A program made the position numbers and the translations under genes. DNA of 64,000 nucleotides from Gallionella sp. GTDB taxonomy: Bacteria; Pseudomonadota; Gammaproteobacteria; Burkholderiales; Gallionellaceae. The notes under the pieces are model-generated. The model was not told the DNA's origin. It saw only the letters and a list, made by a program, of their open reading frames with translations, and did no database searches. The stretch is from NCBI GenBank assembly GCA_022340615.1, contig JAJDNO010000077.1, positions 1-64,000 on the forward strand, written 5' to 3'. Of the stretch, positions 59,837-64,000 are shown piece after piece; position 1 is the first letter of the stretch, and each line of letters opens with the position of its first letter.

Positions 59837-59913
59837 AGGCGCGTAGCTCAGCTGGTTAGAGCACTTGGTCGACATCCAAGGGGTCGTTGGTTCGAGTCCA
59901 ATCGTGCCTACCA
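59837..59913 (+). tRNA. tRNA-Val (anticodon GAC), CCA encoded
   Basis: 77 nt; acceptor AGGCGCG/CGTGCCT (one G-T), anticodon stem CTTGG-TCGACAT-CCAAG, T arm GTTGGTTCGAGTCCAAT, 3' ACCA. Confidence 0.93.
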
Positions 59914-59960
59914 AGAATACAGTGGGTTAGATCAAAAACGGTCTAACCCATTTTTCTTTT
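59868..59960 (+). repeat. att-like direct repeat, copy 1 (tRNA-Val 3' half plus terminator)
   Basis: About 85/93 matches with 62892-62984 by hand alignment. Confidence 0.85.
59923..59960 (+). terminator. Intrinsic terminator after tRNA-Val
   Basis: TGGGTTAGA-tcaaaaacgg-TCTAACCCA followed by TTTTTCTTTT. Confidence 0.85.
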
Positions 59961-59983
59961 GATGGGGGCTTTTGGGTGACTAC

Positions 59984-60064
59984 AATTGGCACAAAACAGC
60001 CTCTCAAAACACATAGCAATAAGGGTACAAAAGCGATGCTCTTGTGAACGTTATGGTCACAGAC
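59984..60064 (+). repeat. Secondary direct repeat, copy 1
   Basis: About 60/81 ungapped matches with 62684-62764 (shared: AATTGGC, CTCAAAA, ACAAAAG, ATGCTCTTGTG, CAGAC). Confidence 0.65.
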
Positions 60065-60200
60065 CAACTACGCTCGACGCAATGCTCTTGGCTGGTCGAC
60101 CGTGGCAATCTATCTCGTCCTTGCATCAGGATATGGCTATTTCAAATTCCTAAAATTTAATATGCCATGAAATCGTTATCAATCAAGACTAAAAAATATC

Positions 60201-60791
60201 TCAATAAACTGCGTTCTCAGGCCTTCTTGCAGTGACAGATTTGAAATAGAGCCGCATCTGTTGTATGTCCCGTTCCATGTCATCTGTTAAATGAATGATC
60301 GGGCCGAACACAGTCGCATGTTTGGCATAATCAACCGCCACAAGTTGCACGGGTACCTGTGCTCTTTTGGCGATGTGCCAAAAACCTGTTTTCCATGTCG
60401 CCACGGGCTTGCGTGTTCCTTCTGGAAAGATGGCCAACACAAGTCGTTCGTTGGAGTTAAACAACTCCACCATTTGTGTAACCACATCGTTATGACTAGT
60501 GCGATCGATCGGTATTGCACCAAGGAAAGCCAGCAATTGGCCGAGCAGACCTTTGGCATATGTATTCGCAATAAACCAAGAAGCATGCAATCCTGTCGCC
60601 ATCATGACGCCCAAGTTTGTCGTGAAATCCCACCACGATGTATGTGGCGCCATGACAAATATAAGCTTGGGAGCCTCGGAGATCTCGCCTTCAGTGTGCC
60701 AGCGACACATTCGCAACAGCATGCGCCCAAACCACTTGCTGACTCGATTACCGCGTTGGGGATGTTGTTTGCCAAGTTTGACAAGATTCAT
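60201..60791 (-). CDS. 1-acyl-sn-glycerol-3-phosphate acyltransferase (PlsC-like) family
   Basis: APHTSWWDF (HX4D-type), IFPEGTRKP. Confidence 0.85.
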   Translation of the reverse strand: MNLVKLGKQHPQRGNRVSKWFGRMLLRMCRWHTEGEISEAPKLIFVMAPHTSWWDFTTNLGVMMATGLHASWFIANTYAKGLLGQLLAFLGAIPIDRTSHNDVVTQMVELFNSNERLVLAIFPEGTRKPVATWKTGFWHIAKRAQVPVQLVAVDYAKHATVFGPIIHLTDDMERDIQQMRLYFKSVTARRPENAVY

Positions 60792-61124
60792 GTGTTCATT
60801 TTAATGCATAACGAATCGCCGACCGGGCTGAAACTCTTCATAATGAGTTAAAGAAGCCAGGCTCAAATTAATGTCAGCTATGGGTCGATAAGAGTCACTC
60901 AAGATGACCAAGTTAACCTCATTTCTATGACCGCTTTCAGCCGTAAAGCAGACAGTTGCGATTCCAGAATTCTATAACCCTATTTGTTTAGTACCCGCTC
61001 ATTGGCACAAAGCTATAGTCGGAGTATCGTACATTTTGCAAAACGCAGTTGAGGCACAGCTGCAATTTCCGGAGCATCGAATTTAGTGAGCTCGACTTTA
61101 CCTAGTGGCCGAAGGAGAATTAAC

Positions 61125-61340
61125 ATGGCAACGAAGCACTTCCAGAAAGGCCTGGACAACCGAATGCGTGATCAGAATGGCGAAATTCGTCAAAAACGCA
61201 AAGATACTAAAGTAGAAACGCTTCGAAAGACCTACGGCGACGATCTTGCCAAGGGTTACCGGTCGGACGCAAAACTGGGCACAGTGCTTAAGCGTGAAGG
61301 ACTTGAAACCTTGGATCAGCTAATCAAGAAAACAAAGTAG
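61125..61340 (+). CDS. Hypothetical small basic protein (71 aa)
   Basis: Good Shine-Dalgarno (AAGGAG) before ATG 61125; Lys/Arg-rich; no recognised domain. Confidence 0.65.
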   Translation: MATKHFQKGLDNRMRDQNGEIRQKRKDTKVETLRKTYGDDLAKGYRSDAKLGTVLKREGLETLDQLIKKTK

Positions 61341-61569
61341 CTTGTTACACTGTTTTCTCAATACCCAACCACCGGCAATTCATTCCAGTCGGTGGTGTAG
61401 TTTGGTGTCTTCCTCTCCCTACGCATAGCCCATCGATGCTGAATTCCTGATGCAGCAATGTCTGCTTTCGGATTTTCTGTATCGTCACTTTCGACAAACC
61501 GGAATTTCAACGGCAAGTTCACTGGCGAGCTTTAGCGAGTCAGTTGGGACGTCTTGTTCGGCTAAGATT

Positions 61570-62232
61570 TCAGACTGGGCGCTGGTACACAGCAAAGTAA
61601 TGCGGCACAGGCGGGTCCTGATCATCATCGTAGGCCTGGAAATATACTTCGGAACAACCAGTCCGTCGGAAACCGTCTATCTCATTCCGGTCTAGCGGCA
61701 AAGGAAATGAGTCCAATTGTTCACCCTTCTTCCGACTGCGACACGAAACGATTATTTTACCCCCGGGAGCAACCAGATCAGAAATTGCTTTAAGAGCCTG
61801 AATCCGACTCTGACCTTCCAGAATCTGGATCGTATTGCACTCGTATACCAAATCAAATCCAAGTTGCCACTCCGCAGGATAGTTGAACAAGTCGGCGACT
61901 CGGTAGTCCACGGCGCTGTCTGGATACCGATGCCGGCACATGGCTATAGCCGACGGGGAAATGTCGAAGGCGATAACTCGACAACCATGCTGCATTAGTA
62001 TTTCGGCGTCATCGCCCAAGCCACAGCCAATCGTAATGGCCCGCTTGCCCAGAAGTTCAGGATGCTTTTCGATCCAATCGAGGAGCAAGGGATTCGGTTT
62101 TAAGTCAGCCCAGTATACTTTGTGGATATCGCCGTCGGCCCGGGAATAGAATTCCTCGAACCATCCATTCGGGTCTCCACTATCAGCGTACATCTTCGCT
62201 AATCGTTGCGTACTATTCTTTGGATTTTCCAT
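61570..62232 (-). CDS. Class I SAM-dependent methyltransferase (thiol/thiopurine methyltransferase-like)
   Basis: KRAITIGCGLGDDAEILMQHGCRVIAFDISPSAIAMCRHRYP motif I/II; start at MENPKNSTQRLAKMY with upstream GAGG. Confidence 0.85.
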   Translation of the reverse strand: MENPKNSTQRLAKMYADSGDPNGWFEEFYSRADGDIHKVYWADLKPNPLLLDWIEKHPELLGKRAITIGCGLGDDAEILMQHGCRVIAFDISPSAIAMCRHRYPDSAVDYRVADLFNYPAEWQLGFDLVYECNTIQILEGQSRIQALKAISDLVAPGGKIIVSCRSRKKGEQLDSFPLPLDRNEIDGFRRTGCSEVYFQAYDDDQDPPVPHYFAVYQRPV

Positions 62233-62500
62233 AAGCTGAGCCTCTAATTGTCTATATGGTGCCACCAATAGAATCAATGGGCTCAGACTCGATTGATTCG
62301 GCGATTTGCTCCCTCGATGCCGCACCTGTCATATAACCCATCAGGCACAATAGCACTGGACAATAAATTTCGCTTTCATTTGCCTTCCCTTCCAACCAGC
62401 AAATTCAATGATCAGCCTGGATTGTTCCTGGATTTTATTGATTTTCTATCACTGTCTCTGAATTATCAATCGAATCGTCCCCGAAATTTTCCGCTTAATC

Positions 62501-62574
62501 GTGCGATTTCAACCAGTCGATGCAACACATTGATTAAACCGTTCGGCCGGTGTTTCGACCGGTTGAAATCGCAC
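62501..62574. repeat. 20-bp inverted repeat (19/20) with 34-nt loop
   Basis: GTGCGATTTCAACCAGTCGA (62501-62520) vs TCGACCGGTTGAAATCGCAC (62555-62574). Confidence 0.8.
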
Positions 62575-62683
62575 CGAGAAGCAGTCGTTCATAGCGACAT
62601 CCTTGACCGTCCATTCTTGGCACAAACACGAAGTTCATCTTGCCCAACTGCCTTCCACAAAGCAGCCAGTTGCGACCGGCAGC

Positions 62684-62764
62684 AATTGGCCGAAAGCAGC
62701 CTTCTCAAAATCATATCAGTAAAGACACAAAAGCCATGCTCTTGTGCAAGCTCTTGTCGCAGAC
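62684..62764 (+). repeat. Secondary direct repeat, copy 2
   Basis: See 59984-60064. Confidence 0.65.
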
Positions 62765-62891
62765 TTGCGATGCAAGACTGTGGTGACTTTTGGGTGACTT
62801 GAGGGGTGAAAACATGGCAAAACCGTGCAAAATGGGGAACGGGCGGCACTTATAAGATAAATAAAAACAATAGGTTGCGACTAAGAAATCA

Positions 62892-62984
62892 GTCGACATC
62901 CAAGGGGGCGTTGGTTCGAGTCCAATCGTGCCTACCAAAAATACAACTGGTTAGTTCAAAAACGGTCTAGCCCGTTTTTCTTTT
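62892..62984 (+). repeat. att-like direct repeat, copy 2: orphan tRNA-Val 3' fragment plus terminator copy
   Basis: Begins at the anticodon stem-loop; 5' half of the tRNA absent (upstream is AAGAAATCA). Confidence 0.85.
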
Positions 62985-63177
62985 GGTAGTGACTTTTCTC
63001 TTCAATTCATCAATCTGGACTACCGAATAATGAGCGGTAGCACCTTGCCTGGCATGCCACAATCTGCTGGTACACGCATCACACAAGCGGTTACTTCACA
63101 TCAAGCGTTCCTGAGTAGCTCAGAACCGAGAAGATATTGTTTTACCGATGTGCTGTAGCGCGATGGCGTCATACTGG

Positions 63178-63621
63178 CTACCGCTTTCCACAGGCGAATT
63201 TCCACAGAGCTTCGCCTATGCTTCCAGGGAGAACTGGCTCCCATTCTCCGGTAACCACGTTGCTCGGAACAATTTCACCATTTCCCATATGTTCAGTGTA
63301 AGCAGTATATGAAAGCATCCTTAGCCTATCTGCCTTACAGTCGAACTCGTCTTGAACTTTCCAGGATTTGATAATGTCCTTTTTGAATCCAGAAAAGAGA
63401 CTGTCTAGTCTTCTTTCCGCTTCCTTTGATAAACCAGACTGATGATCCACGAGAACCATCATTGTCACCAGGTTACCATCCTTGTGAATAGTGGCAGGGT
63501 CTGTATAGGCGATTTGGATTTCTGGCGAATCCTGAGAATGAATTGCAGAAACTTTTAACCATTCTGCTATCGCACTAGTGCTTGCAAGCGACAACAAAAG
63601 GACAAGAATAATTTTAAGCAT
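63178..63621 (-). CDS. Secreted hypothetical protein (resembles surface-adhesin E family)
   Basis: Signal peptide MLKIILVLLLSLASTSAIA; WKVQDEFDCKADRLRMLSYTAYTEHMGNGEIV pattern; start moved from 63678. Confidence 0.65.
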   Translation of the reverse strand: MLKIILVLLLSLASTSAIAEWLKVSAIHSQDSPEIQIAYTDPATIHKDGNLVTMMVLVDHQSGLSKEAERRLDSLFSGFKKDIIKSWKVQDEFDCKADRLRMLSYTAYTEHMGNGEIVPSNVVTGEWEPVLPGSIGEALWKFACGKR

Positions 63622-63687
63622 TGATTTCCCTGATTTCAGAATCGTTATTCTGCGGTCACCGATTTCGATAATAAGCAAACGCTACTT

Positions 63688-63784
63688 TTCCCTGAGCAGT
63701 ATTTCCAGGCTTCCACCCCTTCACTTGGCACCATATTACACGGTATGCCGCAGATCATACACGCGGGAAATACTGCTCTGGGAA
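63688..63784. repeat. 19-bp inverted repeat (18/19) enclosing 59 bp
   Basis: TTCCCTGAGCAGTATTTCC (63688-63706) vs GGAAATACTGCTCTGGGAA (63766-63784). Confidence 0.8.
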
Positions 63785-64000
63785 TAGATATGTGATTTGA
63801 CTTCGGCAGGAAACTTACTGCGATTGGCCAAACATGATTTCATTTCAGCGACAGATTGCAGTAATACAATGGACATTGGAATAATTTCAGTCTTTTCCTT
63901 TTGTCAGAATGTGCCAATATTAGCCATACGCTCGCACCGGCTTTTCGACATGTAATTTAGCCTAATGATGCTGGTATTGTATTCAATAGAGGGTGTACAG

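Follow-up and report, generated by a model that had tools for sequence, protein, structure and literature searches.

A probable pair of related genomic islands, in tandem and both integrase-deleted, at the tRNA-Val(GAC) gene of a Gallionella genome

One contig of a Gallionella draft genome raises the question of what kind of element leaves a second 3' half of a tRNA gene downstream of the gene itself, and no integrase. The window analyzed comprises the first 64,000 bases of this contig (C12; 70,932 bases), from an assembly of 2.27 Mb in 78 contigs, and its sole ARAGORN tRNA call is a tRNA-Val(GAC) at 59837-59913. A preliminary description had proposed a site-specific tRNA-Val island devoid of integrase, and this proposal is borne out by empty sites in relatives, by cargo that has no orthologue in 22 congeners, and by C-terminal integrase vestiges. 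The island had been drawn as a single unit of ~3 kb ending at 62984; its extent had to be revised. The locus is very probably a tandem of two related integrase-deleted, CIME-like genomic islands at the anticodon loop, here termed elements A and B, which together reach ~6.15 kb, to ~66.07 kb.

The tRNA 3' half at 59868-59913 and its copy at 62892-62937 are identical at 45 of 46 positions, the only difference being T/G at 59884, and the one mismatch reported before was recovered by counting. The agreement extends through the terminator to 59973 and 62997 (94/106 positions, close to the earlier estimate of about 85/93), and the chance expectation computed for such a match is negligible. In the 31 bases located 5' of each copy only 7 positions agree, so that copy 2 has no tRNA 5' half, as had been stated. 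The tRNA gene is intact and followed on the same strand by a displaced 3' fragment, as in tRNA-targeted islands. The repeat had also been considered longer than a typical att core, a view that did not stand. In the Islander catalogue, attachment sites at the anticodon loop occur as often as those in the T-stem, the anticodon class comprising 2083 of 3919 islands (PMC4383910). If recombination takes place at the anticodon loop, the element has to bring along all of the tRNA 3' half, hence a repeat of ~46 bp, and similarity continues past the CCA because the 3' end of the integrase gene overlaps the terminator. A repeat beginning at the anticodon loop therefore belongs to a common class of tRNA attachment, and its length is not unusual.

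Comparison with relatives has revealed the uninterrupted site that the preliminary description suggested looking for. In G012, G006, and G031 the gene order is rplI-dnaB-tRNA-Val-narL-narX, with neither insert nor cargo, and tRNA-Val and narL lie 273 bp (G012), ~0.9 kb (G006), and ~0.2 kb (G031) apart. In the present genome narL is located at 66067-66744 on the minus strand of the same contig, beyond the window end; since it follows tRNA-Val almost directly in the relatives, the insert measures ~6.15 kb. Downstream of copy 2 come genes for Adhesin_E, 7TM-like, and PAS proteins, and then narL, narX, and yfcE. The lower GC content claimed for the inserted DNA holds against the upstream flank, with a mean of 0.593 for 1-59836 versus 0.471 for 59982-62891, but not toward the right, where GC remains low (0.458 for 62938-66066 and 0.487 for 66067-70932). 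Native narL-narX/yfcE DNA in relatives has a GC of 0.47-0.50, and GC was rejected as a marker of the right border, the native DNA there being equally low.

The nature of the two tRNA copies became apparent from what adjoins them. A tblastn search with the integrase of the congener G016 matched 20 residues at 63062-63003 and 12 residues at 59981-59946. Both vestiges are in frame, and in each case some tens of bases separate the stop from the CCA of the tRNA. The vestige of element A has an E value of 0.077 and is too short to count alone; it is convincing by its position and frame. An integrase tail beside each tRNA copy marks both copies as left ends, each of an integrase-deleted element. As read from the sequence, copy 2 is more than a displaced tRNA end: it constitutes attL, the left end of another element, B, because 31 C-terminal integrase codons adjoin it. 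Since vestiges of 12 and 31 codons are the only integrase sequences within the insert, the locus is classified as a decayed derivative and not as an autonomous island.

Integrases of this family are intact in several congeners. The tRNA-Val element of G016 carries a 375-aa integrase beside the tRNA-Val half and a matching right end, which is 81% identical to 62726-62892 over 167 bp, and that of G034 is a 2.3-kb element with a 414-aa integrase and RelE-like/HTH genes. In both, the end of the integrase gene falls in the terminator, no more than about 40 bp from the tRNA CCA, and at 7 of the 7 loci tested the family integrase has its stop 13-77 bp from the CCA of tRNA-Arg(ACG) or tRNA-Val(GAC). 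The right ends of the family share paired palindromes and GGTGA repeats, joined to the tRNA at the anticodon loop. In the present genome (G000), G016, and G034 the right end meets the tRNA sequence at an identical base (ATCA followed by GTCGACATCC), and in the tRNA-Arg versions of the family it joins at the equivalent loop. The GGTGA repeats in the right end of element A are proposed to be integrase arm-type sites, and probably act as such. Contig C5 of G016 bears, at 53.2-90.8 kb (L036-L038), three tRNA-Val copies in a row, with about 32 kb that include a MerR-like regulator and probable metal-transport genes (named by eye), followed by a 5-kb element with an intact integrase.

A single larger island at 59.87-66.07 kb, in which copy 2 arose from an internal duplication of the tRNA end, would agree with the similarly low GC of both segments and with their position between tRNA-Val and narL. 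This is very improbable, as a family right end stands before copy 2 and an integrase vestige of its own, unlike that of copy 1, stands after it, just as an A/B junction predicts, and G016 has a like array of three tRNA copies. Fragments of tRNA genes can have other origins (PMC9897764), and chance, or a partial duplication of the tRNA that involved no mobile element, might be considered here too, but the empty sites, the family ends, and the integrase vestiges refute it, so that its probability is close to nil. The parts of the tandem of elements A and B are listed in Table 1.

Table 1. Coordinates of the tRNA gene and of the parts of elements A and B (att, attachment site)
Feature	Position	Strand	Remarks
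tRNA-Val(GAC), regenerated target gene	59837..59913	+	ARAGORN; anticodon loop ~59869-59875
attL of element A: tRNA 3' half copy 1 + terminator overlapping integrase gene end	59868..59973	+	Repeat comparison
Integrase vestige of element A: last 12 codons SHPKAPIKRKMG + stop	59943..59981	-	11/12 identical to G016 integrase C-terminus
Cargo of element A: PlsC-like acyltransferase (PF01553), 196 aa	60201..60791	-	
Cargo of element A: 71-aa conserved protein of unknown function	61125..61340	+	83-88% identical in several unrelated bacteria
Cargo of element A: class I SAM methyltransferase, up to 251 aa	61570..62325	-	
Right end of element A: conserved family end, paired palindromes + three GGTGA repeats (62782, 62793, 62805)	62724..62891	+	
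Junction attR(A)/attL(B): tRNA 3' half copy 2 + terminator + integrase 3' end	62892..62997	+	
Element B region	62938..64000		Runs on along contig C12 to ~66066, native order resuming at narL
Integrase vestige of element B: 31 C-terminal codons LWHARQGATAHYSVVQIDELKRKVTTKRKTG + stop	62967..63062	-	First 20 aa 95% identical to G016 integrase 315-334
Element B region: Adhesin_E-like secreted protein (PF16747), up to 166 aa	63178..63678	-	

When the flanks of element A are joined in silico, a full tRNA-Val(GAC) is restored. For element B, no right end, third tRNA fragment, or family right end was found near narL, and its right border is placed by narL synteny alone. The three credible genes noted earlier between the repeats were recovered as an acyltransferase, a 71-aa protein, and a methyltransferase. 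No orthologues of them were found in the 22 congeners searched, and the acyltransferase likewise had no close match among these. The PHROGs matches all fell on the methyltransferase gene (methyltransferase families and one family of unknown function), with no phage-type genes that would mark a prophage or satellite. Among known anti-phage systems there was only a partial mads_2 match of the methyltransferase domain. A defence or phage cargo is not supported by these two results.

Counterparts of the 71-aa protein with 57-88% identity occur in Burkholderiales, Nitrospirae, Bradyrhizobium, and others. At no fewer than four loci (L114-L117) its gene adjoins a divergent HTH gene and an apparent PIN-type gene (neighbours named by eye), which suggests a travelling module. 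A 20-bp inverted repeat with 95% complementarity and a 34-base loop occupies 62501-62574, in the stretch that separates the methyltransferase gene from element A's right end. A palindrome pair is present at 62723-62783 and again at 60024-60064, of the types CACAAAAGC-GATGCTCTTGTG and CACAGACTTGC-GATGCAAGACTGTG. Besides its place within the family right end, this pair is found by itself in intergenic positions in G011, G019, G023, and G025; it is possibly REP-like, or else belongs to the att region. Integron-like cassettes were considered as well, as the pair at 62723-62783 recurs between genes (G011, G025), yet a 60-base search detected it in only 5 of 37 genomes, often near island ends, and a reading as attC was set aside.

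The preliminary description had further suggested that the island might be mobilized in trans by the integrase of another element. In principle this could happen, but this 78-contig draft, from which an integrase located elsewhere could be missing, yielded no intact cognate one. A profile built from the best PF00589 matches mainly reflected housekeeping recombinases and left most island integrases undetected, and a single island integrase as query performed better. The integrase-type genes of the assembly are two intact ones, probably of the XerC/XerD type, and a remnant with two stops; the family integrase as query gave no match at E 1e-10. A trans-acting integrase within the same draft genome was rejected on these grounds. 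Element A is probably immobile at present, as far as can be judged from an assembly that contains no intact cognate integrase. On contig C23 (L035:365-4793), an integrase remnant with two stops adjoins another copy of element B's 7TM-like gene, 75% identical at the DNA level, and the last part of this copy lies 3.6 kb away. On contig C6 (L033:430-600), the DNA after a tRNA-Arg(ACG) looks like a left end of the family (GGGGTGACTTTTCTCACCAGGCTGTTCCCG) but is followed by no integrase, and the contig stops ~590 bp past the tRNA.

Element A could also belong to a non-autonomous class, integrase-less and with conserved ends, that is regularly moved in trans by an integrase borrowed from related elements. 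It does retain both ends, a 1-kb unit with an integrase tail only and a YgiT-type antitoxin-like gene is present at tRNA-Val(GAC) in G007, an integrase tail is kept beside tRNA-Val in G024, and several congeners have intact family integrases. The DNA immediately inside the integrase tail and the cargo, however, differ among G000, G007, and G024, which suggests separate deletions and not one spreading form, and the cognate integrase was not found in the G000 assembly; this reading is considered unlikely. A broader version, in which a family of very small (1-3 kb) integrase-less islands with conserved ends passes from species to species at tRNA-Val(GAC) and tRNA-Arg(ACG) with the help of integrases from full-size relatives, much as MITEs depend on transposases, seems slightly less likely still.

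Decay of two integrase-bearing islands, the preferred reading, has known parallels. CIMEs (cis-mobilizable elements) are defined as elements that have lost the integration genes and kept attL and attR, and are known to arise by decay and tandem accretion, as in ICESt1-related and IME tandems (PMC5704250). Element A likewise keeps attL and attR, lacks integrase and transfer genes, and stands beside a related element, whereas a conjugative or mobilizable parentage is hypothetical, and element B has lost one end. The definition fits element A only, which has attL and attR (both tRNA halves and the conserved right end) and no integration or transfer genes among the Pfam, NCBIfam, and PHROGs matches. 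In the related intact elements of G016 and G034 the integrase is present, and a relaxase or transfer gene was not recognized in the parts examined. The locus resembles the anticodon-loop class of Islander (PMC4383910) in its regenerated tRNA and displaced 3' fragment, with a repeat starting at the anticodon loop, but the islands described here are devoid of integrase, so the Islander integrase filter would reject them.

Within the genus, the elements G016:C5:85.7-90.8 kb and G034:C97 share the tRNA, the insertion point, the right end, and a left-end integrase convergent with the tRNA; unlike the present islands, they still have a full-length integrase, and their cargo is different. The tandem ssrA islands of Dehalococcoides (PMC3146451) are similar in that several islands, some without recombinase, occupy one RNA gene, but a serine recombinase and a tmRNA target are involved there, in contrast to the tyrosine integrase and tRNA-Val here. 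The tyrosine integrase of Pseudomonas phage phiPSA1 is about 38% identical to that of G016 over 95% of its length; it belongs to a 51-kb phage, whereas phage genes were not recognized in elements A or B.

From these comparisons we infer the following order of events. Element B, equipped with a tRNA 3' half and, convergent with the tRNA, a gene for a tyrosine integrase, would have inserted first, at the anticodon loop. Element A, of the same family, would then have entered the regenerated tRNA, between the tRNA and element B. Both integrase genes were presumably deleted later, leaving 12 (A) and 31 (B) of their 3' codons, and element B would also have lost its right end. Element A would now persist as a CIME-like unit of ~3.0 kb with attL, attR, three cargo genes, and no recombinase, and it would move only if a cognate integrase entered the same cell.

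The locus is a decayed genomic island of an ordinary kind with two ends still readable, and a well-preserved example of a known process. A decayed tRNA island is recognizable without its integrase by a short coding tail (for example, KRKMG-stop) next to the CCA and a conserved right end; such a tail betrays a past insertion because the family integrase gene ends inside the tRNA terminator. Island finders that require an integrase would overlook remnants of this type. Taken together, the related loci of this one genus document the stages between intact element and remnant at a single site, as a small natural series.
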